Of a stretch of 64,000 nt of DNA, positions 23,249-41,247 are shown one piece after another; position 1 is the first letter of the stretch, and every line of letters starts with the position of its first letter. A program made the translations under genes and the position numbers. The notes below the pieces were generated by a model that was not told where the DNA came from, ran no database searches, and was given only the letters and a program-made list of their open reading frames with translations. The stretch comes from Oceaniferula marina (GTDB taxonomy: Bacteria > Verrucomicrobiota > Verrucomicrobiia > Verrucomicrobiales > Akkermansiaceae): assembly GCF_013391475.1 (NCBI RefSeq), contig NZ_JACBAZ010000003.1, positions 1 through 64,000 of the forward strand, given 5' to 3'.

Positions 23249-25129
23249 TCACCCTAACCAGAAGCTAAAGTAAAGGTACATTCCTAGCACAATCGCAAGA
23301 ACCAGTGCGGCAAGTAATTTATTGCCCAGATCCCAACTCGTATTCCATTCGTCGTCTTCATTTTTAATGGAATGATAAGTAATGCCTTTAATTTGTTCTT
23401 CACTAGGAGGCTCTGTTAACAAGGATGCCACCACAACCATAATCGCACTGAGGGCAAACAAAACACCTGTGGCGTAAAGAAAGCTAAAATCACCTATTTG
23501 GGACAACACAGGGATATCCATCTTGCCTGCGTCTGTGGCACTGAAAAAAGTCTGAGAAGTCAATTTTATCATCCCGAGAATAAAGCCGCCACCAAGCCCC
23601 CACACAGCACCCGCAGCATTGATTCGCGTCCAAAATAAGCCCAGCAAAAATACAGCCGTGATCGGTGGAGCTAGGTAGCCCTGCACACTCTGAAGATACT
23701 GGTATAAACCTCCTCCTGAAACCATTTTCATCACAGGAATCCATAATAAGCCAAGAATAACCACCGCGGCAGTAGCCATTCGCCCTACCGATACATAGTG
23801 CCCCTGACTCTTGCCTGGTCGCAGTTTTTCATAAATGTCCACAGTAAACAATGAAGCACTAGAATTGAACAGAGAAGCCAAAGAGCTCATCAACGCAGCG
23901 AGAAGGGTGGCGACAATTAAACCTCGTAGACCCGCAGGTAATAAAGTCTTAACCAAGGAAGGGAAAACCTGATCTCCATTCACTTGAAGTTGATAAACTT
24001 GACTAACTTGTCCATCCTCGCCCGTCACTTCTATTTTTTTCAGATTCCGTGGGATGAAAAATCCTCCCTGTGCGCCTTCAGAGGTAGGGGCATTGTGAGC
24101 CTTCAATCTAGCATTCGCATCGGTAATAATCTGCCGTTGTTCAGAAGATCCAATTTCTGTTGTGTAGGTTTTACTCGATAACTCTTCGGCAAGTCCTTTA
24201 TTATACTGTTTATCCAAAACCGAACCAATCATGCCGGGGATAAGGAAAATAAGGACGGGTGTTGTTTTAAGAAGGCCTCCAAACAGAGCGCCTCGTCGAG
24301 CCGTCTTCAAATCCTTTGCAGCTAAAGTTCGCTGCACAATATACTGATCTGTGCACCAATACCAGATACCGATGATGGGAGAAGCAATCAAGACACCAAG
24401 CCATGGAAAGTCAGGATCGTCTAAGGGGCGCCACAGGGCGTATTGATCTGAGTTTGTTTGCAAGGTGGTCACCATTCCAGACCAGCCTCCGTCAATACGG
24501 CTAAGACCGTAGACCGTGATTAAGAAGGAACCGATCACCAACAGGATTGCTTGTGGTGCAGAGGTAAAGATGACTGCACGCATCCCACCAAACACAGTAT
24601 AGAGACCTGTAAGGATTACCGTCAAAATAGCACCTACCCAGAAGGCATTGTCTCCCCATTGTTCGGGAGGCCCCCATTGAAAAGAGTCGGGTAACAATGT
24701 TTGAAATACTAACGCCCCGGCATACACAGTCACACTCACCTTGGTAAACACATAGGCGACCAATGAAACCATGGACAAGATCCAGCGGGCCTTTGAGTTA
24801 AAGCGCTTCTCAATAAACTCAGGAATCGTGTATACCCCAGACTTATAATAAAAGGGGACAAAGAAGTAGGCTAGTAATATCATACACCAGGCATGCAACT
24901 CCCAATGTGCCATCGCCATCCCTGTAGAAGCCCCCTGCCCTGCGAGGCCCACAATATGTTCAGAGCCTATGTTTGATGTAAAAATCGATGCCCCAATGGC
25001 AAAAAAACCAACATTCCTACCTGCTAGAAAATAATCTTTCGTTGTATCCTGACCTTGACCCGATCTCCATGCGATATATCCAATGATGCAGAAGTATACG
25101 AGAATTACTAACCAATCTGTCGTTTCCAT
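23249..25129 (-). CDS. Sodium/solute (SSS family) sugar symporter
   Basis: 626 residues with about 14-15 membrane-spanning segments and the SGLT-like signature regions: N-terminal DYFLAGRNVGFFAIGASIFTSN preceding GSEHIVGLAG, a WRPLDDPDFPWLG extramembrane loop, and GLRGLIVATLLAALMSSLASLFNSSASLFTVDIYEKLRPGKS. SSS proteins couple sugar uptake to Na+. Between araD (49 bp upstream) and the ThuA/cytochrome gene, it is most likely the L-arabinose importer, though galactose is possible. It is the only inner-membrane sugar transporter in the window. Na+ coupling would fit a marine host. Confidence 0.93.
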   Translation of the reverse strand: METTDWLVILVYFCIIGYIAWRSGQGQDTTKDYFLAGRNVGFFAIGASIFTSNIGSEHIVGLAGQGASTGMAMAHWELHAWCMILLAYFFVPFYYKSGVYTIPEFIEKRFNSKARWILSMVSLVAYVFTKVSVTVYAGALVFQTLLPDSFQWGPPEQWGDNAFWVGAILTVILTGLYTVFGGMRAVIFTSAPQAILLVIGSFLITVYGLSRIDGGWSGMVTTLQTNSDQYALWRPLDDPDFPWLGVLIASPIIGIWYWCTDQYIVQRTLAAKDLKTARRGALFGGLLKTTPVLIFLIPGMIGSVLDKQYNKGLAEELSSKTYTTEIGSSEQRQIITDANARLKAHNAPTSEGAQGGFFIPRNLKKIEVTGEDGQVSQVYQLQVNGDQVFPSLVKTLLPAGLRGLIVATLLAALMSSLASLFNSSASLFTVDIYEKLRPGKSQGHYVSVGRMATAAVVILGLLWIPVMKMVSGGGLYQYLQSVQGYLAPPITAVFLLGLFWTRINAAGAVWGLGGGFILGMIKLTSQTFFSATDAGKMDIPVLSQIGDFSFLYATGVLFALSAIMVVVASLLTEPPSEEQIKGITYHSIKNEDDEWNTSWDLGNKLLAALVLAIVLGMYLYFSFWLG

Positions 25130-25178
25130 GATATGTTATTGTCTGTTGTTGATTTATTAATTGTTGAGAAATAATGAA

Positions 25179-25877
25179 CTATTTTTGCCCATAGTAAGCA
25201 TGGCTCCCATGCTTTCTGAAAAAATGCTTATGCTGAAGGTGCTCTGGGACTGGGGCCACGATGCTGTTTAGAGCCAGAGTTTGAGCGGCCATGTCAGCAA
25301 CCACCTCGAGAGCCAAGGCGGTCTCGAGAGCTTTCTCTGGCGTCGCCCCCCAGGCAAAGGGGCCATGATTTCTTACCAACACGGCGGGAACTTCGAGGGG
25401 ATCCATCTCCAAAAAGCTCTCGGCAATCACTTTCCCTGTCTCCCACTCATACTGTCCTATAACTTCCTCAGGTGTCATCGAACGGGTCACTGGCACAGAA
25501 CCGTTGAAATAATCGCTGTGCGTCGTCCCTAAACAAGGAACGCCCATGCCAGCTTGGGCAAAGCTCACCGCCTTTCTTGAATGAGTATGAACCACAGAGT
25601 GAACACCCTGCGCGCCCCATTGATTATATAAATAACAATGCGTAGGAGTGTCAGAAGAAGGTCGATGATCTCCATCCACCAACTCACCTGCCAAATTCAT
25701 GACCACCATCGATTCGGGCGTCAGCTGATCATAATCAACGCCACTCGGCTTGATTGCGAAAACTTTTACATCTGGGCTGTAAATACTCACGTTTCCGAAA
25801 GTAATATCAACTAAGCCCATTTTCGACAAGCGCCGGTTAGCGTCGCAGCATGCGGTTCGTATTTCTTCAAAATTCAT
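25179..25877 (-). CDS. araD: L-ribulose-5-phosphate 4-epimerase
   Basis: 232 residues, a full-length class II aldolase-fold AraD. Zn-site residues are in place: His97 and His99 (VVHTHS) and His171 (RNHGPFAWG), plus Asp76 in SSDTPTH, numbering close to E. coli AraD. It converts L-ribulose 5-phosphate to D-xylulose 5-phosphate, the last step of L-arabinose catabolism before the pentose phosphate pathway. It starts 25 bp after araA. Cytoplasmic. Confidence 0.96.
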   Translation of the reverse strand: MNFEEIRTACCDANRRLSKMGLVDITFGNVSIYSPDVKVFAIKPSGVDYDQLTPESMVVMNLAGELVDGDHRPSSDTPTHCYLYNQWGAQGVHSVVHTHSRKAVSFAQAGMGVPCLGTTHSDYFNGSVPVTRSMTPEEVIGQYEWETGKVIAESFLEMDPLEVPAVLVRNHGPFAWGATPEKALETALALEVVADMAAQTLALNSIVAPVPEHLQHKHFFRKHGSHAYYGQK

Positions 25878-25902
25878 AACTCAGGAGGTCAACAGTGGTC
25901 TT

Positions 25903-27390
25903 CTACCAGTTTTGATTCCACTTCAACTCTTTCTTAAACTGACGTAGATTGGTGCCTTCATCAATCACAAGGCACTCCACCCCAGCGATGTCAGCAAACA
26001 TCTCTACTTGCTCGATCGTCGTTGTATAACTAAATACCGTATGGTGTGCTCCTCCAGCAAGAAGCCAAGCTGTTGTCGCCGTTGGTAAATCAGGCATCGG
26101 CTCCCATAAGACACGAGCGACTGGCAAATGGGGCATATCATCATCTACCGTCTTCGCATGCACTTTGTTGACAATGATTCTAAACCGTGGCCCCATATCC
26201 ACGAGGGACACGTTGACGGCTTCACCAGACTTACCATCAAAGACCAAACGCACAGGATCCTCTTTCCCGCCAATACCCAATGGATGAATTTCGCAAGATG
26301 GGCGAGCCTGAGCAAGTCCAGGACAAATTTCCAACATGTGGGATCCGAGACACCGCATTCCGGCAGGGTCAAGGTGATAGGTGTAATCCTCCATAAATGA
26401 GGTTCCACGATCCCCCTCTGCATTCATCACCTTCAAAATACGTAACAAAGCAGCATGCTTCCAATCACCTTCAGCTCCGAAGCCATAGCCATCGAGCATC
26501 ATTCTCTGCACCGGTAACCCAGGCAATTGCTTCAGACCATGTAAATCCTCAAACGTACTCGTAAACGCCTTGTATCCCCCGGCGTCCATAAATCGACGCA
26601 GCCCAAGCTCAATTTTGGCAGAATCCTGTAAACTCACATGCATGTCTCCAGCACGCTTTAGCTTTGGATCCATAAAATACATCTGATTATACTCATCACA
26701 TAGCTCCAATATATCGGCTGAATTCACTGATTTGATCGATTCAACCAAGTCTCCAATTCCATGTGTATTAACTGAAAAACCAAACACATTTTCCGCCTCT
26801 ACCTTATCCCCTTCTGTCACCGCAACTTGCCTCATATTGTCACCAAATCTTACCACCTTAAGTGACTGACTTTCGGCCCAAGCACACACAACACCACCCC
26901 ATGACGCCAGCTGTTTCACTACATTGGGGTCCTGCCAATGCCCGACAACAATCGCGCGCGCCTTCCCCAAACGAGCACAAATATGACCAAACTCGCGGTC
27001 ACCATGGGCCGACTGATTGAGGTTCATATACTCCATGTCAATACTCTTCCATGGGATATCCCTATTAAACTGAGTGTTCAGATGGCAAAACGGTTTGTTT
27101 AGTAAATTTAAACCACCAATCCACATTTTGGCAGGTGAGAATGTATGCATCCAACAAATCAAGCCAACACATGCCTCACTTTGATTGGCCTCCTGACATA
27201 GCCGCTTGATTTCATCTGCGCTCTTCAAACAATTTTTAAAGACAACCTTCAGCGGAATACCAGGGTTATCGTTAAACGAATTAGCGATCTCTAAACTATT
27301 TGCATCAACCTGCTTTAAAACGTCATCTCCATACAGAGTCTGACTTCCTGTGATAAACCAAACTTCCTTTTGATTATTATATATTGTCAT
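25903..27390 (-). CDS. araA: L-arabinose isomerase
   Basis: 495 residues, the usual family length. Active-site and metal residues are visible: Glu307 (FGAEGDWKHAAL), Glu334 (TSFMEDYTYH), His351 (GSHMLEICP) and a His in AGGAHHTVFSY near 450, one residue offset from the E. coli enzyme. It isomerises L-arabinose to L-ribulose with Mn2+. It starts 11 bp after araB. The leader before the ATG (GATAAAATA) has no Shine-Dalgarno, so coupling to araB translation is possible. Confidence 0.97.
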   Translation of the reverse strand: MTIYNNQKEVWFITGSQTLYGDDVLKQVDANSLEIANSFNDNPGIPLKVVFKNCLKSADEIKRLCQEANQSEACVGLICWMHTFSPAKMWIGGLNLLNKPFCHLNTQFNRDIPWKSIDMEYMNLNQSAHGDREFGHICARLGKARAIVVGHWQDPNVVKQLASWGGVVCAWAESQSLKVVRFGDNMRQVAVTEGDKVEAENVFGFSVNTHGIGDLVESIKSVNSADILELCDEYNQMYFMDPKLKRAGDMHVSLQDSAKIELGLRRFMDAGGYKAFTSTFEDLHGLKQLPGLPVQRMMLDGYGFGAEGDWKHAALLRILKVMNAEGDRGTSFMEDYTYHLDPAGMRCLGSHMLEICPGLAQARPSCEIHPLGIGGKEDPVRLVFDGKSGEAVNVSLVDMGPRFRIIVNKVHAKTVDDDMPHLPVARVLWEPMPDLPTATTAWLLAGGAHHTVFSYTTTIEQVEMFADIAGVECLVIDEGTNLRQFKKELKWNQNW

Positions 27391-27401
27391 TATTTTATCG
27401 A

Positions 27402-29066
27402 TTACTTTGAAATTTCTTCTTTGATGGTGATTAAATCTTTCATCACAGCATACAGGTCTCCTGCCCCTCCACGCTTACCAAATCCATCATGCAGATCTCG
27501 ATAGATGCCAAATAGACGGGTGTAGGTTTCATGATTCTGTTGATCCGGCGTATAAGCTCGCTCGGTCACACGCGTCATCGCCTCCTGAGCGGTGGAAAAA
27601 TCCGGGTAAACCCCAGCAATCACGGCGGCCCCCACAGCAGCTCCGAGAGCACACGTCTGTGAGGATTGGGAGACACATACTTCTCGCCCAGTTACATCTG
27701 CATAAATTTGCATCAACATGGCATTTTTTTCCGCAATGCCACCAGCGCAAACAATCCGTTCAACCTTCACACCATACTCCTCAATACGTTCTAGAATCAT
27801 GCGCGCACCAAAGGCAGTGGCTTCGACCAGTGCACGATAAATTTCAGATCGGGTGGTATGCAAGGTTTGACCGATCAAAGCCCCCGTCAACCGCTGATCA
27901 ACAAGTACCGTTCGGTTTCCGTTATTCCAATCCAATGCCATCAAGCCGCTCTCCCCTGGAGACATCGACTCTACATCCTCAGTCATCTCTCGGTGTAACG
28001 TGGCATCACCCTGACAAACGGTTTCTACCCACCACTTAAAAATATCTCCTACCGCACTCTGCCCGGCCTCGATCCCATAATATCCAGGTAATATCGATCC
28101 CAGCACCTTGCCGCAAATCCCTGGAATATCCTCCACCGCCTTATCCGCTTTCACAATGGCACAGTCACATGTGGAGGTTCCGATGACTTTCACCAAAGTC
28201 CCCTCTTGAATACCACATCCAACAGCACCAAAATGAACATCAAACAATCCCATCGAAATCGGGATACCCACATTGAGTCCTAACTTCTTCGCCCAAGCTG
28301 AACACAAATACCCCGCCGTTTGGCTAGCATCATAGGCTTTCTCATAGAGGCGATCTCTGAGCTCTGCCAATCGAGGGTCGAGCATTTCTAAAAATTCCTT
28401 ATCCGGTAAGCCACCCCATTCATCGGAGTAAAGCGCCTTGTGACCCGCCGCGCAAACACTCCGTTTAACCAGCTTAGGATCCTCGATTCCCGCCAATACG
28501 CTGGGAACCCAATCGCAGAGCTCCACCCATGAATAAGCGCTGTCAAAAACACGTTGATCCACTTTCAGACAATGCCAAATCTTGCTCCACCACCATTCCG
28601 AGGAATACACATTTCCACACTTCGCCACAAAATGGGGTCGGTGCGTTCTCGCTAAATCGGTAATCGTAGCCGCCTCCTCATGGCTGGTATGATCTTTCCA
28701 TAACCAACACTGAGCTGAAAGATTCCCCTCAAACTCAGAACTCATCCCAAGTGCCTGATTCAAAGAATTAACAGGCAAGGGGCTGGATCCTGTCGAATCG
28801 ATACCAATTCCCACTACCTTTTCAGCTTGAAAATCTTTGCAGGCTTTAGACTCATTGAGAGCTAGCTTGATAGCTTTTTCAGCTCCTCTGAGATAATCTC
28901 CAGGATGCTGCCGCGCGAGGTAAACATCCGACTGATCAAGCAAAATCCCCTCATCACCACTCGGATAACCATAGACCCCCGTGCCAATTTCAACACCATC
29001 ATCACAGCAAACGACAACGGCTCTGCAGGAGTTGGTTCCATAATCCAGACCTATCACAAACGACAT
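27402..29066 (-). CDS. araB: Ribulokinase
   Basis: 554 residues of the FGGY kinase family. The N-terminal phosphate-binding block VIGLDYGTNSCRAVVV, GIDSTGSSPLPV, a GTSTCDCAI block and the C-terminal ATAFGARMILERIEEYG and CAGGIAEKNAML segments match ribulokinases; the length also fits AraB rather than the shorter glycerol or xylulose kinases. It phosphorylates L-ribulose to L-ribulose 5-phosphate using ATP. First gene of the leftward operon araB-araA-araD-symporter-ThuA fusion, divergent from the LacI-family gene, with an operator variant 49 bp upstream. Confidence 0.95.
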   Translation of the reverse strand: MSFVIGLDYGTNSCRAVVVCCDDGVEIGTGVYGYPSGDEGILLDQSDVYLARQHPGDYLRGAEKAIKLALNESKACKDFQAEKVVGIGIDSTGSSPLPVNSLNQALGMSSEFEGNLSAQCWLWKDHTSHEEAATITDLARTHRPHFVAKCGNVYSSEWWWSKIWHCLKVDQRVFDSAYSWVELCDWVPSVLAGIEDPKLVKRSVCAAGHKALYSDEWGGLPDKEFLEMLDPRLAELRDRLYEKAYDASQTAGYLCSAWAKKLGLNVGIPISMGLFDVHFGAVGCGIQEGTLVKVIGTSTCDCAIVKADKAVEDIPGICGKVLGSILPGYYGIEAGQSAVGDIFKWWVETVCQGDATLHREMTEDVESMSPGESGLMALDWNNGNRTVLVDQRLTGALIGQTLHTTRSEIYRALVEATAFGARMILERIEEYGVKVERIVCAGGIAEKNAMLMQIYADVTGREVCVSQSSQTCALGAAVGAAVIAGVYPDFSTAQEAMTRVTERAYTPDQQNHETYTRLFGIYRDLHDGFGKRGGAGDLYAVMKDLITIKEEISK

Positions 29067-29180: not shown

Positions 29181-30215
29181 ATGAAGGTCACCATGCAAAC
29201 GATTGCCGACGACGTCGGTGTTTCACGTAATGCCGTTTCACTTGCGTTACGCAATCACCCTTCCATTTCAGAACAAACAAAAAAACTGATCGAAGCTTCG
29301 GCAAAAAAATTAGGCTACCACCGAAACCCTACCTATGGAGAACTCATGTCCCAGATGCGTATGCGAGGTCTAGGAAAAACAGCCGCTACGATCGCTCTGT
29401 TTAATGCCAATAAAAGTAATGATGCCTTCAAAAATCACCCAACCATCCCTGAATACGTCAAAGGATGTCAAAAACGATCAACACTCTTAGGTTACCCTCT
29501 GGACTATTTCTGGCTACACCAGCCTAACACTCCAAGCTCGCGTTGGATCGATATCCTGGAGGCCCGAGGCATCCGAGGCATCATTATCATTGGCTTAATG
29601 AAAAATAACCAATTGCCTAAAGAGCTTCTCCCAATATTTGAGCACTTTCCAACCATCGTCACAGGAGTCAGGACACGCACTCCATCGCTTCCGTTCACCT
29701 GCGTCGACCACCATATTCTGTCTCTTCGAGCGATCGAAAAAGCCATAAGCCTGGGCTACAAACGGCCCGGCCTGATCATCGACAGCACCATTGATGAGCT
29801 TGTCGATCATCGATTCAGCGCAGGCTACTTCACCGGGCAGCAGAAACTCCCAAAAACCAGGCAATTAAACCCCTTCTTTGAGGCGGACCAAGCCAACGAG
29901 GACATCTCATTGTTTAAAACATGGCTCAAAAAAGAAAAACCTGACGTCATCCTGACACTTTATGATTACGTTCAAGACTGGCTCACAAAGCTGGGGTATA
30001 AAATACCTAGCGATATCGGACTCATCCAACTCGAGAAACGTAAAAACAAACCCGACTGGGCCGGAATGAATCAACATAACGATATTACGGGAGAGGCCGC
30101 GATAGATATGGTGATCTCTAGAATTCATCATGGCGAACCAGGCATCCCCCAATTCCCTCAAGCCACACTAATTGGCCCAACCTGGGAAGACGGCAAAACA
30201 GTTCGTCGTCAATAG
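29181..30215 (+). CDS. LacI-family transcriptional regulator, candidate master regulator of the locus
   Basis: 344 residues. The first ~50 residues are a LacI HTH: TIADDVGVSRNAVSLALRNH, SISEQTKKLIEASAKKLGY, then the hinge segment HRNPTYGELMSQMR. The rest (about 60-340) is a periplasmic-binding-protein-like effector domain, e.g. RGIRGIIIIGL, LPFTCVDHH, KPDVILTLYDYV, IPSDIGLIQLE. It is divergently transcribed from araBAD, the usual place for a sugar-responsive local regulator, and the shared motif lies between them. The effector may be L-arabinose or a galactose/arabinose derivative (inference). No Shine-Dalgarno; an ATG at the fifth codon is an alternative start. Confidence 0.9.
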   Translation: MKVTMQTIADDVGVSRNAVSLALRNHPSISEQTKKLIEASAKKLGYHRNPTYGELMSQMRMRGLGKTAATIALFNANKSNDAFKNHPTIPEYVKGCQKRSTLLGYPLDYFWLHQPNTPSSRWIDILEARGIRGIIIIGLMKNNQLPKELLPIFEHFPTIVTGVRTRTPSLPFTCVDHHILSLRAIEKAISLGYKRPGLIIDSTIDELVDHRFSAGYFTGQQKLPKTRQLNPFFEADQANEDISLFKTWLKKEKPDVILTLYDYVQDWLTKLGYKIPSDIGLIQLEKRKNKPDWAGMNQHNDITGEAAIDMVISRIHHGEPGIPQFPQATLIGPTWEDGKTVRRQ

Positions 30216-30301
30216 TTTTAGAAGCCTTTCAAGTCGAAAAAGCCAAATGACTCCTCTGCTACCTCAGGCTCTCCAATTTTATGAGGTTACTTTTGGTTGC
30301 C

Positions 30302-32824: not shown

Positions 32825-32981
32825 TGTTTGTTACTAATTATTCAATCAGACAATCGGTCTAATTAGGGTTACCATACCCCCCATTATGGGAGAAATAGAG
32901 ACGACTTGATTCTTTGTGTATAGACTGTTCTTCCTTCAGCGATAAGCTAAAGCTTACTTTCAAAAAAAGGCCCACCCCGAC

Positions 32982-33011
32982 AAAAAAGAGGCGGGCATTT
33001 CTGCCCACCTC
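32982..33011 (-). terminator. Rho-independent terminator of PEP-CTERM cassette 1
   Basis: In transcription sense: GAGGTGGGC, loop AGAAAT, GCCCGCCTC, then TTTTTT. The stem is near-perfect with one G-T wobble. About 33 bp after the stop of the 33045-33803 gene. Confidence 0.85.
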
Positions 33012-33044
33012 CTTCTCTTGTTTATAAACACACAAAACAAATTT

Positions 33045-33803
33045 CTACTTCCTGCGGCGCAGGATAAGAGCCAGTCCAGCTAACCCAAGTAAAGCTGAAC
33101 TGCTTGGCTCTGGCACTGCGTTAGGTCCTGCGTCGTAACTTGAAGTTACCTCAGCAGCAGTCAATACGGTGTCATAAATACGAAACTCATCGATTGAGCC
33201 GTCAAGATAAGGATCACTCCATTGAGCTTTACCCAAATAAGCGTTGGTTGTTCCAATACTGGCTAAAGTGTTAGTAACATCTGTCTTTTCAGAAACAAAC
33301 GCTCCGTTCACATAATATTTAATGGTATTGGTAGCATCGTCAAATGTCATCGCCATATGGTAGCTTCCTGCTGCCAATTTTCCTGTCTCCTCTAAAGCCT
33401 GTTCTGTAGGATTATTTTTGAGACCTATCACTTGGTTAGGATTAGACGATCCTCCAGGTTCACCGACAGGTGAGTAAAACAGATAATCCGATGTATTATC
33501 ACCGAAATCAAAGACCCTCTGCCAGCGTGTGAGATCATCATGTGTCCACCATGATTCGATAGTAAGAGTTGTAAACGTATCGATGGCAATCGTTGAGGCA
33601 TCAAGGTTAACGTAATCATTGCTTCCGTCAAATAGCGCCTGTCCTCCGGAGACAGAGGCTCCGTTCACAAGAGTGCCATCAGCCCCTCCAATGGAATCAC
33701 TGGCATCAGTGTCAAAGCTATATCTGTGCACCATGGCCGCATTCGCCATGGCTGCAAGCCCAAGACTTATTGTCATTGTTGTTAGTATCGTATTTTTCAT
33801 CAT
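33045..33803 (-). CDS. LamG-domain PEP-CTERM surface protein (cassette 1, type A)
   Basis: 252 residues: signal peptide (about 1-22), one LamG/concanavalin A-like domain (about 23-225; HRYSFDTDASDSIGGADG, GSIDEFRIYDTVLTAAEV), and a C-terminal PEP-CTERM sorting signal with VPEPSS at about 231-236, a short hydrophobic helix and the basic end LRRRK. Such tails are cut and anchored by an exosortase, which is not in this window. LamG folds often bind sugars. It is the left-most of five tandem single-gene cassettes, with its own operator 136 bp upstream and its own terminator. Closest relative in the window is cassette 5. Confidence 0.88.
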   Translation of the reverse strand: MMKNTILTTMTISLGLAAMANAAMVHRYSFDTDASDSIGGADGTLVNGASVSGGQALFDGSNDYVNLDASTIAIDTFTTLTIESWWTHDDLTRWQRVFDFGDNTSDYLFYSPVGEPGGSSNPNQVIGLKNNPTEQALEETGKLAAGSYHMAMTFDDATNTIKYYVNGAFVSEKTDVTNTLASIGTTNAYLGKAQWSDPYLDGSIDEFRIYDTVLTAAEVTSSYDAGPNAVPEPSSSALLGLAGLALILRRRK

Positions 33804-33938
33804 TGTATTAATTCGATTTAGGGTTGGTTACCGCTGTTCAGGTTACTTTCTTGATGACAGAGAGGTTATCTGACGACCAATAAAGAGACATTAATGACCA
33901 TTAATTTGTATTTCAATGAGATTGCACGAATCATCAAC

Positions 33939-33949
33939 TTTACAATAAA
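33939..33949 (-). promoter_or_regulatory. Operator/promoter of PEP-CTERM cassette 1
   Basis: Sense TTTATTGTAAAG, with TGCAAT starting exactly 17 bp after TTTATT. 136 bp upstream of the ATG. A 10-bp palindrome TTACTAGTAA lies 24 bp further upstream (33973-33982). Confidence 0.7.
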
Positions 33950-34063
33950 GTTGCAGGTACACTCGAGTCAAATTACTAGTAAACCGGAACTTGTATGAAC
34001 AACCGCTATTTAGCTGGTGAGGAGGTAGAGCTCGTTGACCAGCGCGCTCTACCACATATCGAC

Positions 34064-34092
34064 AAAAAAGAGGCGAGCATTTCTGCCCGCCC
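34064..34092 (-). terminator. Rho-independent terminator of PEP-CTERM cassette 2
   Basis: Sense: GGCGGGC, loop AGAAAT, GCTCGCC, then TC and TTTTTT. Same loop sequence as the other four cassette terminators. Confidence 0.85.
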
Positions 34093-34131
34093 CCCTCTCT
34101 TGCTTAAGAAATATACAAAATAAGCAAAATT

Positions 34132-34878
34132 TTATTTCCTGCGGCGAAGAATCAGAGCGAGTCCAGCCAATCCAATTAAAGCTGAGCTACTTGGCTCGGG
34201 CACGGCAGTCGAAACAATCTGCACACCACTCCAAGGACCGGCATCCCCACCTGCGGCGCCATTGATCGCGATCTCGCCACCAACAGAACTGATACCTGTA
34301 AACTTGACGAAATGCGTTCCTTCAACATAGGCTGCATTACTTGTCGCAGTAGCGAAGTTGCTGGTAAGAGATTCTGCAAGATCAGCGCCAGTTCCTGTTG
34401 TAATGGTGTAATCATTTGTGCCGTCATCCCAACGCCATGAGAAATAGACATAAACGTCGTGGGTGGCTGTATCGCTAAGTCCGCTAAAAGTCAGCGTCGA
34501 ATTGTTGTTATTACTACCAAACCAACCTTGGTTCATGGCGTCTCTGCCAGTATCAGAGTAAGCGGCAAAATCTTTGTTAGTAGTTCCTGAAGTGGCCAAT
34601 GCCACGGTGCCGGCGTTTCCATCCGAATCCGAGATAGCTAACCCTGACAGGTGTCCCGCAGCAGCTGGAGCTATGATGTTGTTCCATTCGTTAGCTCCAA
34701 CAGATCCAGCTTGATAAACAGCTCCGTCAGCAACACTTACCGCACTGCCTCTTCCTGTGCCCCCTGTATTACCTGCGAAATTCACGTTGTATAAAGTAGC
34801 AGCCTGACTGGTGGCTACAGAGAAGGCGCCCACCGCAGTTAGGGTGAGAGCTAGAGTTCGATTGTTTGTATTTTTCAT
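34132..34878 (-). CDS. PEP-CTERM surface protein (cassette 2, type B)
   Basis: 248 residues: signal peptide (about 1-27, SQAAT), a Gly/Ser/Thr/Asn-rich beta-sandwich-like domain (e.g. LTFSGLSDTATHDVYVYFSW, WSGVQIVS) and a PEP-CTERM tail starting VPEPSSS and ending LRRRK. I do not recognise a named domain; the layout resembles carbohydrate-binding-like PEP-CTERM proteins common in Verrucomicrobiota. It shares the pattern of cassette 4 (a VYVYF strand, then a G-x-Q-I-V end before the tail), so I group the two as type B. Operator 134 bp upstream, terminator 39 bp downstream. Confidence 0.8.
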   Translation of the reverse strand: MKNTNNRTLALTLTAVGAFSVATSQAATLYNVNFAGNTGGTGRGSAVSVADGAVYQAGSVGANEWNNIIAPAAAGHLSGLAISDSDGNAGTVALATSGTTNKDFAAYSDTGRDAMNQGWFGSNNNNSTLTFSGLSDTATHDVYVYFSWRWDDGTNDYTITTGTGADLAESLTSNFATATSNAAYVEGTHFVKFTGISSVGGEIAINGAAGGDAGPWSGVQIVSTAVPEPSSSALIGLAGLALILRRRK

Positions 34879-35011
34879 TGTCGTATTAACTTAAGGTTGG
34901 TTATCGCTATTCTAGTTGTTTTCTTGATTACTGAGAGATGGACTCATGAGCGATAAAGGGACATTAGTCACTACCTACTTGCCAATCCATGCAATAGTGT
35001 CGGCCATCAAC

Positions 35012-35022
35012 TTTACAATAAA
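35012..35022 (-). promoter_or_regulatory. Operator/promoter of PEP-CTERM cassette 2
   Basis: Sense TTTATTGTAAAG followed 17 bp later by CACTAT. 134 bp upstream of the ATG. Confidence 0.72.
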
Positions 35023-35079
35023 GCTATGGACAAAACTTAGTATGATTACCGACGCAGCGCGCTACCGCTACACACCGAC

Positions 35080-35108
35080 AAAAAAAGAGGCAAGCATTTC
35101 TGCCTACC
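35080..35108 (-). terminator. Rho-independent terminator of PEP-CTERM cassette 3
   Basis: Sense: GGTAGGC, loop AGAAAT, GCTTGCC, then TC and seven T. Two wobble pairs. Confidence 0.82.
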
Positions 35109-35147
35109 CCTTTCTCTTGCTTAAAAAATATACAAATAAGCAAAATT

Positions 35148-35924
35148 TTATTTCCTGCGGCGCAGGATGAGCGCGAGTGCACCGAGACCGAGAAGGGCTG
35201 ATGAGCTTGGCTCGGGCACAACGTCAGCTCCTGCTGCAAAACTTGCAGCTACCTCCTGGGCGGAAAGAGCCGTGTTATAAATACGAAATTCATCAATGGA
35301 GCCGCTGAGATTATTGTCCCCCGGATAAGAGGCTTCACCCAAATAAGCATGGGCATCACTGACATCGCTTAAGTTAATCGTCGCTGCGGTGTTCTGACCA
35401 ACTTGCACACCATCGATGAACAGTGTCATCGTGTCTGTCGCATTGTTAAATGTTAAAGCCATGTGGTAGGCACCATTGGCTAACTTTCCAGGTAAGTTAA
35501 TAAAGTCTTCATTATTGAAACCCGGATCAGCATCGGAAATCGCAGCATATTGTGCTGCGTCACCACCTGGGTCCCCTACAGGCGAATAAAAGAGGTAGTT
35601 TCTGCCCATACCGGAACCGTTGGTATCACCAAAGTCAAAGACTCGCCCCCAATTGGCCTGTGAGTCATGTGACCACCAAGCTTCCATTGTTACTTCTGAA
35701 AAACCGCTAATCGCAATCGAGTTCGAATCAAGGGCCGCATAGCCAGCCCCGTCTAATTGTAGCGCGCCTCCTGAAACAGTCGCAGTACCGAGAAGTGCGC
35801 CATCAGCCGCTCCGATAGAATCACTGACATCGGTGTCGAAGCTATACCGGTGCACCAGTGCAGCATTTGACATCGCTGTAAGGCCGATACCAAGGGTCAT
35901 TGTTGTTAATAGTGTATTTTTCAT
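35148..35924 (-). CDS. LamG-domain PEP-CTERM surface protein (cassette 3, type A)
   Basis: 258 residues: signal peptide (about 1-22), LamG-like domain (HRYSFDTDVSDSIGAADG; VTMEAWWSHDSQANWGRVFDFG; GSIDEFRIYNTALSAQEV) and an intact PEP-CTERM tail (VPEPSSS, then LILRRRK). Paralogue of cassettes 1 and 5 but with a longer loop after the FYSPVGDPGG block. Own operator 142 bp upstream and own terminator. Part of the alternating A-B-A-B-A array. Confidence 0.88.
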   Translation of the reverse strand: MKNTLLTTMTLGIGLTAMSNAALVHRYSFDTDVSDSIGAADGALLGTATVSGGALQLDGAGYAALDSNSIAISGFSEVTMEAWWSHDSQANWGRVFDFGDTNGSGMGRNYLFYSPVGDPGGDAAQYAAISDADPGFNNEDFINLPGKLANGAYHMALTFNNATDTMTLFIDGVQVGQNTAATINLSDVSDAHAYLGEASYPGDNNLSGSIDEFRIYNTALSAQEVAASFAAGADVVPEPSSSALLGLGALALILRRRK

Positions 35925-36065
35925 AGTTATACTTGAGTTGAGTTTAAGTTTGAGTTTGAGTTTAGCTACCGCTCTTCTTGATTTCAGAGTGAAGGTCTCA
36001 AAAGCGATAATGTAACGATAACCTCCATCAATTTACCAATCAATCAGATAGTGCAAGCCTATGAC

Positions 36066-36076
36066 TTTACAGTAAA
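36066..36076 (-). promoter_or_regulatory. Operator/promoter of PEP-CTERM cassette 3
   Basis: Sense TTTACTGTAAAG, perfect dyad, with CACTAT exactly 17 bp after TTTACT. 142 bp upstream of the ATG. Confidence 0.75.
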
Positions 36077-36130
36077 ATCATTGGGAACCATTCGACTCAG
36101 ACGGTTAAAGAGCCTCAACCAGTGTGAAAG

Positions 36131-36172
36131 CCCTAGGATGCAAGCCGTCGTTTAACCCCCAAGTCAATACGC
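36131..36172. repeat. Duplicated spacer, copy 1
   Basis: About 42 bp resembling 37321-37365; the shared core reads GTCGTTTA(A)CCCCCAAGTCA. It lies between an operator and the next terminator, where no gene is expected, so it marks duplication of whole cassettes including spacers. Confidence 0.6.
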
Positions 36173-36190
36173 CCAATAGGACACACCGAC

Positions 36191-36219
36191 AAAAAAAGAG
36201 GCAAGCATTTCTGCCTCCC
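36191..36219 (-). terminator. Rho-independent terminator of PEP-CTERM cassette 4
   Basis: Sense: GAGGCA, loop GAAATGCT, TGCCTC, then seven T. Perfect 6-bp stem. Confidence 0.88.
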
Positions 36220-36259
36220 CCTTTCTCTTGCTTAAAAAATATACAAAACAAGCAAATTT

Positions 36260-36967
36260 TTATTTCCTGCGGCGAAGAATCAGAGCGAGTCCAGCCAATC
36301 CAAGCAGAGCGGCACTGCTTGGCTCAGGAACAGACTGGACAATCTGAATGCCCGAGATGCCACCCCAACTATTAATGTCAACCGTGGCGGTCTGCGTAGC
36401 TCCACTGAGTCCGGAAAAGACAGCATAGTTGGCGGCATCTGCCGTAGTGGTGCCTGAGTCCGCAGCAGCAAAGACGGCATTCGAACCACTGACTGAACTC
36501 GGGCCGATGGTATTGAAGGAATAGGTCGTGCCTCCTACAGTGATGGTGCCGACCCGCCCCGCTACGTCAGAACCGAAGTAAACGTAGATGTCGTAGGAGC
36601 CGTATGCAATATCGGAAAGAGTTACCGTAGAGGTGTTGCCTGATCCAACATTGAGATAACTGTTGAGCATGTTCCGATTCCAAGAACCGTCGGTATCCAC
36701 TCCTGGCTCGGCGCCAATATCCCAGATGTTGCCGGCAGTATAGGTAAAGGCGACGTCGATGGTTGTGGCAATACCCGAATCGTCTTGTAGGTTTTCGAGT
36801 GACTCGACGTTGGAGTTAGACCAATTATCAGCTAAATGGACTCCCGCAAGGCCTTGCACGGTCGTAGTGTCGACCACATTCCAGCTGACTGTAGCAGCCT
36901 GCACGGAGACCGCCATCGCGGCAAGCCCAAGGCTTACTGTCATTGTTGATAATATTATATTTTTCAT
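36260..36967 (-). CDS. PEP-CTERM surface protein (cassette 4, type B)
   Basis: 235 residues: signal peptide (about 1-24, VQAAT), a beta-rich domain with Ser/Thr/Gly strands (TLSDIAYGSYDIYVYFGSD, NYAVFSGLSG, GGISGIQIVQ) and an intact PEP-CTERM tail (VPEPSSA, then LILRRRK). The domain is unnamed but resembles cassette 2, most clearly in the YDIYVYF and final strand positions. Operator 141 bp upstream, terminator about 40 bp downstream. Probably an anchored surface protein expressed with the catabolic genes. Confidence 0.8.
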   Translation of the reverse strand: MKNIILSTMTVSLGLAAMAVSVQAATVSWNVVDTTTVQGLAGVHLADNWSNSNVESLENLQDDSGIATTIDVAFTYTAGNIWDIGAEPGVDTDGSWNRNMLNSYLNVGSGNTSTVTLSDIAYGSYDIYVYFGSDVAGRVGTITVGGTTYSFNTIGPSSVSGSNAVFAAADSGTTTADAANYAVFSGLSGATQTATVDINSWGGISGIQIVQSVPEPSSAALLGLAGLALILRRRK

Positions 36968-37107
36968 GGTATTTTTTTAATTTAGGTTATGACTGTTCCA
37001 GACGCCATTTTTGTTAGGTTGAGAATATCTCACAAGTCTTCTAGAAACTAGATATAGTTTTCAACATCCACCCCACCCCTTTCAATAAAATCATACCGGC
37101 TATTAAG

Positions 37108-37118
37108 TTTACAATAAA
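37108..37118 (-). promoter_or_regulatory. Operator/promoter of PEP-CTERM cassette 4
   Basis: Sense TTTATTGTAAAC, with TATGAT exactly 17 bp after TTTATT, the best -10 in the set. 141 bp upstream of the ATG. Confidence 0.78.
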
Positions 37119-37320
37119 GTTCACGAGACAACTCGGATCAGACTGTTGAAATCGAGGTCTTTCTTCTTAAAAACCAAATTCATGTGCTGGCTCCGCTTTT
37201 CCATGTTGATGCCAGAATCAGAATAATAGGGGAAATCACACCAAATCGCGAAAGGAAGAGCATTTTCATCACCTGACGGCTTAATGACTTAGCGTGAAAC
37301 ACGCTACAGTATCACCCCAG

Positions 37321-37365
37321 AGGCTATGATGCGAATCGTCGTTTACCCCCAAGTCAGTGCACCCT
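37321..37365. repeat. Duplicated spacer, copy 2
   Basis: Counterpart of 36131-36172 in the equivalent place of the next cassette junction. The rest of the 478-bp gap 36968-37445 holds operator 4, this spacer and terminator 5; I see no gene in it. Confidence 0.6.
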
Positions 37366-37378
37366 AGCTCACACAGAC

Positions 37379-37407
37379 AAAAAGAGGCAAACATTTCTGC
37401 CAACCTC
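37379..37407 (-). terminator. Weakened terminator of PEP-CTERM cassette 5
   Basis: Sense: GAGGTTGGCA, loop GAAA, TGTTTGCCTC, then five T. Same AGAAAT core, but the stem has a T-T mismatch and wobbles, and the T run is the shortest of the five. Confidence 0.6.
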
Positions 37408-37445
37408 TTTCTCTTGCTTAAAAAATATACAAAACAAGCAAAAAT

Positions 37446-38210
37446 TTATTTCTTGGGGTGAAGGATCAGCGTTATGCCCCCTAATCCAAGCAAAGTCACA
37501 CTCGTTGGTTTAGGCACAACGTCATGTGCAACGTCAGGCCCTTGAGTAAAACTTAAAGCAACCTCGGCTCCTGAAAGAGCCGTGTCATAAATGCGAAACT
37601 CTTCAATCGAGCCTCCAAGGTAGGGATCTTTTTCCCATTGAGCTTTCCCCAAATAAGCCTTCGTTGCTCCAATGGATGCCAAGGTGTTCGTCACTGAGGT
37701 ATTTTTTGCCACTTCCACTCCGTCCACATACAGCGTGACAGTATCAGTAGCGTCGTCAAAGGTCATCGCCATATGGTACCTTCCTGCGGGCAATTTGCCT
37801 GAATTCGTCGTCAACTGCTCTACAGCACCATTTTTGAGACCTGCGGTTTGATGATGCATATTATCAGGTTCTCCGACCGGTGAGTAAAACAGATAATCTG
37901 ACGTATCGTCACCGAAATCAAAGACCCTCTGCCATTTGGTGAGGTCATTGTGTAACCACCATGCCTCCAACGTCACTGAGGAGAAAGCATTCATGCCTAT
38001 AGATTTAGCATCAAGGCTAACGTAGTCGTCGATTCCGTCCAGCTTTACAGCCCCTCCTGAGATCGATGCTCCATCAACAAGAATGCCATCAGCACCACCT
38101 ATCGAATCACGGGCATCGGTATCGAAACTATACCGGTGCACTAAATCAGCTGTCGACATCGTAGTAAGTCCGATGCTGATTGCCATGGTCGATAGTTCCG
38201 TTTTTTTCAT
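37446..38210 (-). CDS. LamG-domain protein with a degenerate PEP-CTERM tail (cassette 5, type A)
   Basis: 254 residues: signal peptide (about 1-21), LamG-like domain very close to cassette 1 (SIGGADGILVDGASISGG, ASIGATKAYLGKAQWEKDPYL, GSIEEFRIYDTALSGAEV) and a C-terminal segment in the PEP-CTERM position that has drifted: VPKPTS instead of VPEPSS, and LILHPKK instead of LILRRRK. Loss of both the Pro-Glu-Pro core and the Arg cluster should impair exosortase recognition, so the protein may be released or lost from the membrane. Operator 146 bp upstream; the terminator is also the weakest of the array, suggesting decay of this unit. Confidence 0.82.
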   Translation of the reverse strand: MKKTELSTMAISIGLTTMSTADLVHRYSFDTDARDSIGGADGILVDGASISGGAVKLDGIDDYVSLDAKSIGMNAFSSVTLEAWWLHNDLTKWQRVFDFGDDTSDYLFYSPVGEPDNMHHQTAGLKNGAVEQLTTNSGKLPAGRYHMAMTFDDATDTVTLYVDGVEVAKNTSVTNTLASIGATKAYLGKAQWEKDPYLGGSIEEFRIYDTALSGAEVALSFTQGPDVAHDVVPKPTSVTLLGLGGITLILHPKK

Positions 38211-38355
38211 AATTGCGATTGGTTGATATTGGGCGCTGAGCTCTGTATCGCTCCCTCTCGACTCCCTGAATTCAATAAAGAGATTTCTAACGAGCGATAA
38301 ATTGACCCTAATCCTCTATAAATTTTCACTCAATGAGATTGCATACACGATCAAC

Positions 38356-38366
38356 TTTACAGTCAA
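38356..38366 (-). promoter_or_regulatory. Operator/promoter of PEP-CTERM cassette 5
   Basis: Sense TTGACTGTAAAG with TGCAAT 17 bp downstream. The flank AGTTGATCGTG...TGCAATCTCATTGA closely matches cassette 1. Confidence 0.72.
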
Positions 38367-38380
38367 CCTTTGACACCAAT

Positions 38381-41161
38381 TTATGGATGAGTGTTAGCGA
38401 GTAACTTCCACTCCCAAACTCCCTGATGCCCGGCTTGAATAGAAAGCCTCCAGTAACGGGCTCGAACATCAAAATCATCCGTTTGAGGTGATTTTATTTG
38501 ACGTTCTTTTGGTTGAGTAATTGTTTTCCAAGACTTTCCATCCATGGATACCTCCAATCGATAGGCATGCCCTAGCGTTGGCCGATAGAGAGAAAGTTCA
38601 CTTCGTTGAACCGTATAAGGTTTCCCAAGATCCACCATCAGCCATGAGGCTTTGTCTTGTTCTTCTGGCTGCCATCGAGTGAAATTTGATTGGTCAACAG
38701 CACACGTGGGCAGGTGATCTTGTTTGCGTATCAGGCGTTTGCGATCCCTTCGCCCATAAACTGACACAGGAGCGCGAGAGCTCGATGCGGAGACAATCAC
38801 CTCCTTCTTAGTAGCCAAGTTAATGCCTGTAACTGTTTCGTGTTTAGCATTGGCATTGATAAGTGGTTGAATGCCTGTGGTCGTCAACTTGACTGGCTGA
38901 ATGGTGCCATCTTCATTAAATTTAAGTTGGTCAATGGAAATCTGGCGGGTGACCCCACCTCTCCCATACTCCAAATAAACAAAGTAGTAATTTTCACTAT
39001 CAGATGGAGAAAAAACGGTGCCATGTCCAGGGCCATGAATACCGGACACCGCATTGCTTTTAGCAATCACATCGACCACAGGTGTTTCAAACGGTCCCAG
39101 TGGAGATGTTCTACTCATACAGTAAGCGTAGTGATAAGACTCATGGGCACCAAGAGTGTATAAGTAGTAATAAATCCCCTTACGCTTGAACATAATCGGT
39201 CCTTCGCTGTATCCTTTGCGTTGAGTCGGAATCGAAATGGGATCTCCTGATACAGCGGTAAAATCATCATTCATTCGCCATACTTTGCGATGGTTACTAA
39301 AGAGGTAGCCTTTGCCGTCATCGTCCACATACACCTCCGCGTCGATCGTATTCAATAGCGGGGTTTTATCGGTTCCGGCAATCAAACGAAAGGGGCCTTC
39401 GGGAGAACTCGCTGCCGCAACACGAATCTTTTTATCAATTGTCGGGTAGAGCAAATATGTATCATCTCGTTTGATAATTCGGCTTGGAGCCCAATAGAGC
39501 TTGTCGTTTGTTTCCGGCATTGCGTGCCCTTGAAAAGACCAATTCACCAAATCTGTTGATTTCCAAACAACCGCGGGACCGTTTTGCCAATGGCCCAAGC
39601 TTGGGCGTGGGCAGTCGTCCGTGGTCGCGGTCAGATAATATACTCCATCAAACTCCGATATGGAAGGATCTGCGGCACAGTCCGGGATGACGGGGTTCAC
39701 ACTGGGGGTTGGCCAATTAAGGGCTGGTTGTTTTTTCTCGCCGAGGTACTCCACGTGAATGTCATCGTACCAGGCTGTGCCTGTCGAGGTCCCCCATCCA
39801 CCCAATAAGGCATTAATGGTAATTTCACTCTCATCATTTGTCTCAAAATCAACCTGGACTTTTTTCCATTTAGTGGTGGCTGTCACCGCAGTCGTTTTAA
39901 CGTGACTGAGGTTATGAATATTCAACAGTGCACCATGGCCACTTCCAGGAACGACATTTTGTGTCTGAATCCACCCTGATAATCGGTAGCGACTTTGCGG
40001 GCTGACCGCTACTTGTGTTGACCATGCAGCATCAGCACCAGAAGCCGATTTGATAAGAACACAACCTGAGTCACTACGTCCCTGGTTTAAGGCAAATTTT
40101 TGCTCAGATTTTCCACGCCAAGTCACCGGACTCCAGTCTCGAGGATTTCCTTTAGTCGTTATTTCAAACGAGCCGTTTTGCAAAGGCTCCTTAACTGGAG
40201 GGGGCCCTTTATATTCCTGGAGATCATTGAAATGTTTTTCACTGATGGTAAAGATTGTGCCGTGGCGCAGTCCCTTAGGGTATCGAATCTCACTAGATAT
40301 ATCTTCCCAATTTTTAAAGTCTTTTGTTTTTAGCGCTCCGTAACGGTGCTTCCGATAAACATCATAATAAACATACCAGTAATCACCTACTTTGGTACAT
40401 GTTGGCCCCTCCACCCATAGCCCCTTGGGCGAAAACGGCTTTGCCCCTTTACTCCAAGGACCCGTCACTTTGTCACTGACTGCAATCCGGAGGTTTTTCT
40501 CAGCAGGATTTCCAGACTCGTTTTTGAAAATCATCACGTAATGGTCCCCATTATGAATGATCGTTGAATCGATGACACTAAAACCAGGCTCGTAAAACAC
40601 CTGACTTTTTGTGTAGGTCTTAAAGTCTTTGGTCGTGGTGTAATACATGCGGTGATTCCCCCCTCCCGCTCTTTTTAGAGTCTCAGTGAATTTACCGGGG
40701 ATACTTGTCGCCCAATAGATCACGTACTGCTGATCATCGGGATCCCATGTGATCTCCGGAGCCCAGCAATTTTTTGCTTTCGGCTCATGCTCCATCACAC
40801 CGATTACTTTTTGCTCACTCCACGTGATCAGATCTTTAGAATGAGCAATACCAATTGTCTTGTCCCACCATCCGGTAGTCCACACCATATGAAATAGGCC
40901 ATCAGGCCCTTGAATGATACAAGGGTCCCTCATCAATTTTCCACCTACTTGTGGTTTCAGAAACGACCGGTCTCCCATCAACGCTTTCCATTCGAGTCCA
41001 TCGCGACTGTATGCCAAGTGCAGCCCATCTTGGCCATTCCCACGAAATGAAGCAAACACATGGACCCGCTCTTTAGACGCCCCAATAGCTACCATTTGAA
41101 AAACAAGCGTCATCATCACCATCAAACTCAAGATCTCTTTTCTTCTCATGCGGTTTATCAT
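38381..41161 (-). CDS. GH43-like / CBM / GH43 / CBM32 four-module secreted enzyme
   Basis: 926 residues. Signal peptide (about 1-29); GH43-like propeller homologous to 9769-10701 (about 30-330; FRGNGQDGLHLAYSRDG, KLMRDPCI, NCWAPEI); a CBM4/9-like jelly roll (about 335-480; LQNGSFEITTKGNPRDW, WYDDIHVEYLG); a second, different GH43 propeller (about 490-780; CAADPSISEFDGVYYL, LYWAPSRI, DAEVYVDDDGKGYLF, YSEGPIMFKRKG); and a C-terminal F5/8 type C/CBM32 discoidin domain (about 800-926; NFTRWQPEEQDKASWLMVDLGK). Two catalytic domains of different subfamilies suggest attack on two linkages of one arabinose-containing polymer. Monocistronic, with an operator 87 bp upstream. Confidence 0.82.
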   Translation of the reverse strand: MINRMRRKEILSLMVMMTLVFQMVAIGASKERVHVFASFRGNGQDGLHLAYSRDGLEWKALMGDRSFLKPQVGGKLMRDPCIIQGPDGLFHMVWTTGWWDKTIGIAHSKDLITWSEQKVIGVMEHEPKAKNCWAPEITWDPDDQQYVIYWATSIPGKFTETLKRAGGGNHRMYYTTTKDFKTYTKSQVFYEPGFSVIDSTIIHNGDHYVMIFKNESGNPAEKNLRIAVSDKVTGPWSKGAKPFSPKGLWVEGPTCTKVGDYWYVYYDVYRKHRYGALKTKDFKNWEDISSEIRYPKGLRHGTIFTISEKHFNDLQEYKGPPPVKEPLQNGSFEITTKGNPRDWSPVTWRGKSEQKFALNQGRSDSGCVLIKSASGADAAWSTQVAVSPQSRYRLSGWIQTQNVVPGSGHGALLNIHNLSHVKTTAVTATTKWKKVQVDFETNDESEITINALLGGWGTSTGTAWYDDIHVEYLGEKKQPALNWPTPSVNPVIPDCAADPSISEFDGVYYLTATTDDCPRPSLGHWQNGPAVVWKSTDLVNWSFQGHAMPETNDKLYWAPSRIIKRDDTYLLYPTIDKKIRVAAASSPEGPFRLIAGTDKTPLLNTIDAEVYVDDDGKGYLFSNHRKVWRMNDDFTAVSGDPISIPTQRKGYSEGPIMFKRKGIYYYLYTLGAHESYHYAYCMSRTSPLGPFETPVVDVIAKSNAVSGIHGPGHGTVFSPSDSENYYFVYLEYGRGGVTRQISIDQLKFNEDGTIQPVKLTTTGIQPLINANAKHETVTGINLATKKEVIVSASSSRAPVSVYGRRDRKRLIRKQDHLPTCAVDQSNFTRWQPEEQDKASWLMVDLGKPYTVQRSELSLYRPTLGHAYRLEVSMDGKSWKTITQPKERQIKSPQTDDFDVRARYWRLSIQAGHQGVWEWKLLANTHP

Positions 41162-41247
41162 TTTTACTATTTACGAGTCCTCAGCCAAGCTGATTTTTTA
41201 TACCTCTAATCATTGCTGATTAGCACATGTTTTCAGACATTGAAGAC

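Follow-up and report, generated by a model that had tools for sequence, protein, structure and literature searches.

How can neighbouring genes come to share their ends while their bodies have diverged or are altogether unrelated? The question is raised by a tandem array of five single-gene units in a sugar-use locus of Oceaniferula marina (Verrucomicrobiota, Akkermansiaceae), within positions 1 to 64,000 of contig NZ_JACBAZ010000003.1 (assembly GCF_013391475.1), the 64,000-nucleotide (nt) stretch that we analysed and refer to as the window. We consider it likely that the array is a set of separate units with constant, recombining linkers and exchangeable passengers, most of them ending in a predicted PEP-CTERM sorting tail, and that it lies within the regulon of the local arabinose/alpha-galactoside glycan-use locus. 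This judgement applies to the explanation as a whole; its exchange part is supported by the discordant ages of ends and bodies and by repetition of the pattern in other arrays, its regulon part is well supported by the motif distribution described below, and recombination as the cause of the shared ends is what we infer from the sequence.

Ends and bodies of the five units

The five minus-strand open reading frames (ORFs), one per unit, encode 252, 248, 258, 235 and 254 amino acids (aa; units 1 to 5, at 33045..33803, 34132..34878, 35148..35924, 36260..36967 and 37446..38210, respectively) and are bounded by a GH43 protein (38381-41161) and an acetylesterase/GDSL protein (30302-32824). Their N termini are signal-peptide-like, as judged by eye. 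Units 1, 3 and 5 match Laminin_G_3 in Pfam (E 2.9e-21 to 1.4e-24), in agreement with the LamG assignment of an initial sequence-only reading of this DNA, which had also been right to set units 2 and 4 apart as another type (type B here), with no Pfam domain beyond PEP-CTERM in the Pfam scan. Its description of that type as beta-rich is unproven, given the mean pLDDT of 43.6 and 37.8 of the AlphaFold single-sequence models of units 2 and 4, which contain few elements, mostly strands; built without an alignment, these models were set aside as too poor in quality for a fold search. The five PEP-CTERM cassettes counted in the same reading are indeed five one-gene units, with PEP-CTERM recognisable in four: units 1-4 score above the PF07589 and TIGR02595 cut-offs, and unit 5, matched by neither, combines a weak palindrome with a sorting tail degenerate in both its PEP motif and its basic end (VPKP...HPKK). 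Sorting of unit 5 has probably been lost, and a comparison of its LamG body with that of unit 1 (dN 0.25, dS 1.18) suggests that the body is constrained and that the protein is perhaps located differently from the others.

Each unit has the build anticipated from the letters alone, namely an operator-like palindrome 132-145 nt upstream of the start codon, a leader, a gene of 235-258 codons and a terminator. The 3′ module that follows each gene (32979..33047, 34061..34134, 35077..35150, 36188..36262 and 37376..37448 for units 1 to 5, all on the minus strand) runs from the stop codon through an A/U-rich hairpin to a second hairpin, the terminator, with a long stem and a GAAA loop, and a T-run, and the strong hairpin folds far better than shuffled controls in every unit (z -4.2 to -6.1). 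We define a linker as the DNA that connects two adjacent units, with the PEP codons of the one and the last signal-peptide codon of the other as its limits; this yields four minus-strand linkers of 419-628 nt (5-to-4, 36893..37520; 4-to-3, 35850-36334; 3-to-2, 34804-35222; 2-to-1, 33729-34206), each composed in order of sorting tail, terminator, spacer, operator, leader and signal peptide. Their alignment reveals homology at both ends, as proposed earlier for leaders, terminators and 3′ ends: all four align in two blocks, one with the sorting tail, 3′ untranslated region (UTR) and terminator, the other with operator, leader and the first part of the signal peptide. Between these blocks the spacer shows little conservation, apart from the region just past the terminator in linkers 5-to-4 and 4-to-3, and that of linker 5-to-4 is some 140 nt longer than the others.

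The bodies tell of a different past. Identity between LamG bodies is highest, at 65%, for the two outermost units 1 and 5, and unit 3 is 47-50% identical to both, with fourfold-degenerate sites of the LamG pairs 38-46% identical as against 78-91% for their UTRs. For pair 1-3, 20 of 50 fourfold sites and 50 of 63 UTR positions are kept (p 3e-5); the corresponding counts are 30/65 and 50/64 for pair 1-5 (p 3e-4) and 21/56 and 62/68 for pair 3-5 (p 2e-10). Furthermore, the UTRs of units 3 (LamG) and 4 (type B) are identical at 65 of 68 positions, and the bodies of these two units have no BLAST similarity. Ends that are similar while the bodies are diverged or unrelated seem not to share one common history with them, and in this array the ends appear younger than the bodies, which is the pattern expected of concerted evolution by recombination between ends.

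Selection alone could in principle produce alike ends, if these are constrained and the mature parts diversify fast, with no need for exchange. PEP-CTERM tails and signal peptides are constrained, and section 5 of an earlier survey (PMC1569441) places PEP-CTERM sets among the fastest-evolving of their genomes; against this, the LamG bodies are themselves under purifying selection (dN/dS ~0.2 where dS is finite), and their fourfold sites are far more diverged than the UTRs. We regard selection alone as unlikely and return to it below with the evidence from other arrays.

The sequence-only reading had explained the alternating order of the units by duplication of an A+B pair, with units 1-2, 3-4 and an extra A descending from one ancestral pair and then diverging. 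The order itself, the homologous linkers and the remote similarity between units 2 and 4 (38% within the C-terminal 135 aa, tail included) are in line with such an origin. Nevertheless, the closest LamG pair is 1 and 5, whose retained body identity and the divergence levels in general misfit one duplication, and both type-B units have nearer relatives in other genomes (for unit 4 a G021 protein, 42%, E 1.7e-22; for unit 2 a G022 protein, 38%, E 2.6e-15; unit 2 matches unit 4 at E 5.9e-9). The phylogeny put forward as a check turned out accordingly: in a poorly supported tree of 21 type-B rows, unit 4 stands beside proteins from G021, G042 and G047 and unit 2 beside the G022 protein, so that the two are not closest relatives, and their union in one clade is weakly rejected (p-AU 0.036). 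Three of the original 24 rows (L107, L111, L118) had been removed beforehand as probable members of other families, and the trimming of leading residues was rough, with L103, L115, L119 and L121, for example, losing some. PEP-CTERM proteins matched by unit 2 occur in 13 of 58 genomes and those matched by unit 4 in 23; the two sets overlap, and some of the matches barely exceed the tail. By sequence similarity the two units are remote members of a single broad superfamily, each with nearest relatives of its own. Pair duplication is thus, in our estimate, improbable as the origin of the array.

Shared 3′ DNA in other PEP-CTERM arrays

We then asked how far alike ends on unrelated bodies recur, using the window together with 40 stretches of clustered PEP-CTERM hits, 20 from the same genome and 20 from three relatives. 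The stretches were picked by hand as hit clusters before UTRs were compared, and for one of them, L031, two 3′-module matches were known in advance. PEP-CTERM genes were also sought in genome G021, which took no part in the array comparison. The gene lists come from a regular expression applied to ORFs, which misses genes outside the expression (possibly L071:23-742), and comprise 120 PEP-CTERM genes (66 in the O. marina genome including the window, 54 in the three others) forming 64 adjacent same-strand pairs, one of which, in L076, overlaps, with one start codon there probably wrong. Bodies were called unrelated when BLAST gave E ≥1e-3 after trimming of 30 residues per end, as was the case for 47 pairs, 41 of them without a match even at E 10.

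Among these 47 unrelated-body pairs, UTR similarity exceeds the 99th percentile of 2472 same-genome non-neighbour pairs in 17, and similarity of the 5′ ends exceeds the corresponding 99th percentile in 11; with the window excluded, the counts are 13/43 and 8/43. UTR-sharing pairs number 12/24 in the O. marina genome and 1/10, 2/6 and 2/7 in the others, and pairs sharing 5′ ends number 9, 0, 0 and 2, the effect thus being most pronounced in O. marina itself. In controls with a slightly different gene set, UTR sharing is seen in none of 18 adjacent pairs without PEP-CTERM, in 1 of 42 with one PEP-CTERM gene and in 17 of 53 with two. Neighbours also tend to agree in codon usage within the tail: the same residue is encoded by the same codon in 484 of 870 cases for unrelated-body neighbours and in 176 of 326 for related-body pairs, as compared with 14042 of 41373 for non-neighbours.

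The position of the joins is similarly informative. In pairs 2-3, 24-25, 41-42 and 9-10, identity in 21-nt windows rises from ~0.1-0.5 upstream to 0.8-1.0 past the PEP codons, a jump less sharp in the window's own pairs than in these cleanest ones. Measured back from the last base of the stop codon, local alignments of five pairs put the start of the shared block at 72-82 nt in three pairs, where the PEP codons lie, and at 133-147 nt in the other two; past the stop, the block extends for 63-126 nt. UTRs are mostly unrelated between different arrays. That unrelated-body neighbours share the tail together with untranslated DNA, namely 3′ UTR and terminator, points to recombination of linkers over slow protein evolution.

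Related-body pairs (n=17) behave differently, with 12 sharing 5′ ends and only 4 sharing UTRs; their excess over unrelated pairs is significant for 5′ ends (p 0.0009), and the difference for UTRs is not (p 0.39). Unequal crossing-over in the tail would yield such a pattern, as a copied body would keep its promoter and gain its neighbour's 3′ end. Genes 30-32 of L039 resemble this outcome: genes 31 and 30 have weakly related bodies, similar 5′ ends and different UTRs, and genes 31 and 32 have a UTR, plus some of the 5′ end, in common.

Several observations weigh against linker recombination as we propose it. UTR sharing is absent from 30 of the 47 unrelated-body pairs, as selection alone would also have it, and of the 23 such pairs from the other genomes, UTRs are shared in 5 and 5′ ends in 2. 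The terminator is possibly constrained, and part of the UTR similarity could reflect selection, although the UTRs of other arrays are mostly unrelated. Within the array, pairs 4-5 and 1-5 by themselves differ in their UTRs without reaching significance (p 0.09). "Unrelated", as defined by BLAST of trimmed bodies, leaves room for remote homology, and units 2 and 4 are remotely homologous by way of intermediates. We found no orthologous array in which a passenger had been replaced: the adjacent GH43 gene has only partial matches in 2 of 78 other family genomes (E ≤1e-60), and the matches listed for the L031-array DNA in 14 genus genomes were, besides the query, short tail matches and repeats. 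Selection alone is nonetheless at odds with non-coding UTRs that are common to unrelated-body neighbours and mostly differ from array to array, and recombining linkers with exchangeable passengers is the reading that we favour.

Exchange may also have reached beyond single arrays. A covariance model of the 3′ module (R1), with 150 of 884 candidates scored, finds in the O. marina genome the five units and two other places at E<1e-6, the next match having E 2.9. Both lie on another contig, one directly behind a PEP-CTERM gene (C1:195291) and the other 200 nt behind a second such gene (C1:196828). The module of unit 1 scores higher with that at C1:195291 (49) than with the other modules of the array (41-43), which suggests that 3′ modules may have moved between arrays too. 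The idea of a genome-wide PEP-CTERM RNA element was dropped in view of these seven places, and the module was not found in 15 related loci searched.

Several side observations concern the same arrays. A 206-bp dispersed repeat with imperfect inverted ends (L031:10126-10331, C1:196625-196830) stands between a PEP-CTERM stop codon and a 3′ module of the R1 type, as though it had parted the two; it has at least 21 further copies at 96-99% identity in the same genome (21 of 211 candidates scored) and others at 86-93% in G005 and G011. Also in L031 (9003-9175), a match to group II intron D1-D4-3 (RF02001, 69.8 bits) lies between two PEP-CTERM genes of that array; at gathering scores, Rfam gave no family in the window, L032, L033 or L039. 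The neighbours L043:1304-2008 and L043:2121-3494, of 234 and 457 aa and with unrelated bodies, agree at 136 of 144 positions over the stretch that begins with the PEP codons and ends with the terminator. In L050 (C4:650000-668000), several PEP-CTERM proteins of very large size (~1000-1700 aa) and with related bodies are encoded in tandem.

The palindrome and the sugar-use locus

The control region of the array appears to be that of the surrounding locus. The operator-like element is a 15-base palindrome, ACTTTACxGTAAAGT, found on the minus strand as 15-mer matches upstream of units 1 (ACTTTATTGTAAAGT, 33937..33951), 2 (35010..35024), 3 (36064..36078) and 4 (37106..37120); the weakest site, that of unit 5 (GGTTGACTGTAAAGT, 38354..38368, repeat family D9), was read by eye and is absent from the pattern-search matches in both window and genome. 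At up to three mismatches the window contains 16 matches in 11 distinct places, some being counted on both strands, as compared with 2.1 expected, and none of 100 shuffles reaches 16. All five matches of the 5.07-Mb genome at up to one mismatch lie inside the window, and of 24 genome-wide rows (both strands) at up to two mismatches, 16 are in the window, corresponding to 11 places as against 6 elsewhere. A backward control pattern gives 16 rows genome-wide, which the 24 palindrome rows do not far exceed and which tells against any argument from frequency; it is the locality of the palindrome, not its number, that we count as evidence. All 12 sites, the 11 places and the weak site of unit 5, are intergenic, in a window with 10% intergenic DNA.

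Beyond the array, the palindrome stands upstream of a GH43-LamG gene, of the GH43 + F5/8C gene next to the array (38381..41161, minus strand; palindrome at 41246-41260) and of several further genes. Another copy (29113-29127) lies between a LacI-family gene (29181..30215, plus strand; PF00356, E 1.6e-10) and a divergent FGGY kinase gene, the latter part of a minus-strand arabinose catabolism set (23249..29066) of SSF transporter, class II aldolase (araD-like), araA and FGGY kinase. The locus further encodes GH43 proteins, Melibiase-type (GH27/GH36) proteins, a sulfatase and esterases. From these positions, the LacI-type regulator probably binds the palindrome upstream of each unit, and the link to sugar use suspected earlier holds in that the local palindrome precedes every unit and surrounding glycan genes alike. 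LacI binding, the inducer, induction, surface display and sugar binding are inferred here. Among three ORFs with no Pfam match at the thresholds used (51723-54242, 11858-15475 and 45778-46701), two have the palindrome upstream.

LacI-controlled polysaccharide utilisation loci combine a LacI gene, glycoside hydrolases and a sugar transporter under a shared palindrome. The array locus is similar in having a LacI-type gene beside the palindrome, glycoside hydrolases, araA and associated genes, and a transporter; it differs in that SusC and SusD families are not among the listed matches for the 34 window proteins scanned and in that the likely regulon includes an exosortase-type surface-protein array.

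Could the units be nothing more than ordinary single-gene PEP-CTERM genes placed by chance in a glycan locus, with the palindrome as their general promoter element? PEP-CTERM genes number at least 150 in this genome (of 198 candidates 150 were scored, every listed one above the cut-off), many of them in small clusters, and single-gene units are the norm according to section 7 of PMC1569441, which counts more than 65% of PEP-CTERM genes in single-gene operons. On the other side stand the confinement to the window of palindrome matches at up to one mismatch and the presence of the palindrome upstream of glycan genes. We also tested 22 stretches with at least three PEP-CTERM genes for a shared palindrome, a narrow test that demands near-perfect palindromes. 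This array is the clearest of the 22, with a motif on 5 of 5 units (four further units, against 0 or 1 in 10 shuffles), followed by L035 with a weaker motif on 3 of 3 (0 in shuffles); in the other 20, a motif is common to at most one further unit. The palindrome itself is not the shared motif in any of the 21 other stretches, and a sugar-type palindrome as a general trait of PEP-CTERM arrays was discarded, being unseen in 20 of the 21. The rarity of a sugar operator on PEP-CTERM genes, noted at the outset, is borne out, and a chance placement of ordinary genes is unlikely.

A need for high or separately tunable expression does not follow from the separate units, since single-gene units are the usual state of PEP-CTERM genes (PMC1569441) and are not in themselves a sign of such a need. 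As for independent promoters, the units are separate and do not form an operon, and a consensus promoter scan of 28000-42900 shows no excess over shuffles (19 matches, 21.3 expected). The 5′ leaders fold no better than shuffles (z -0.07 to 0.74), and a structured leader, suggested by visual inspection, which showed a conserved stem in units 2, 3 and 5, was abandoned on these folding energies.

Proposed mechanism, known systems and relatives

In the model that we propose, each unit would give rise to an exported protein, of LamG or type B, and the PEP-CTERM tail of units 1-4 would hand it over to the genome's exosortase (one genome match, TIGR04178, E 1.4e-20, C2:396333-396620), with putative glycan-binding or structural proteins thereby reaching the surface during glycan use. 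Recombination between linkers, by unequal crossing-over or conversion, would duplicate units and homogenise their ends, and a new passenger spliced in frame between signal peptide and sorting tail would gain operator, export, sorting and terminator at once. More tentatively, and with somewhat less than even confidence, in these Verrucomicrobiota PEP-CTERM arrays might serve as a plug-in display, where constant, recombining linkers let any secreted domain be spliced in frame, brought under a glycan-specific regulator and shown at the surface; repeated recombination of linkers would explain both the high number of such genes and their great body diversity. The sugar-locus palindrome also allows us to name, for this array, a growth condition expected to induce its PEP-CTERM surface proteins.

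Cassette swapping behind a constant end is familiar from Rhs/CdiA tips and pilin silent cassettes. The array is like these in its constant ends, variable part and tandem copies, and unlike them in that its units are complete genes with their own control site and terminator, constant at both ends and with a differing mature middle. That PEP-CTERM proteins combine conserved tails with very diverse bodies, as a modular tail on diverse, mostly single-gene units, has been known since 2006 (Haft et al. 2006, PMC1569441), and the array agrees with the PEP-CTERM/exosortase system (TIGR02595/PF07589) described there in its signal-peptide-like N termini, diverse body, PEP motif, hydrophobic stretch and basic end, as well as in its mostly single-gene units, within-genome tail similarity and modular tail domain. 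The upstream element reported there is a sigma-54-type motif pair in Proteobacteria, and the array has a local sugar-locus palindrome instead. In sections 5 and 7 of that paper we noticed no mention of unrelated-body neighbours sharing 3′ UTR and terminator. The present analysis adds three points: neighbours share untranslated 3′ DNA together with the tail; most of this DNA is specific to one array, with its joins located at the PEP codons or close to them; and the control region of this array is a local palindrome of the sugar locus. We found no open-access literature linking PEP-CTERM to gene conversion or to Rubritalea, which does not imply absence from print.

Rubritalea enters through a search for the array next to GH43 genes elsewhere, which succeeded in part. 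Among 79 family genomes, a full-length match to the adjacent GH43 gene (E ≤1e-60) occurs only in the O. marina genome, and the five-unit palindrome array was not found. A metagenome-assembled genome of an uncultured Rubritalea sp. from the same family does have, on contig CAKZNV010000239.1, a single LamG PEP-CTERM gene that is 59% identical in its best segment; this contig has no palindrome match at up to three mismatches and no match to the 3′ module. The gene lies directly before a GH43-domain gene (46% to the window's GH43 protein), from which a LamG PEP-CTERM gene beside a predicted arabinan-type GH43 gene exists elsewhere as well, and this GH43-domain gene contains LamG-like stretches that, by reading, recall those of the window at 16717-19941.

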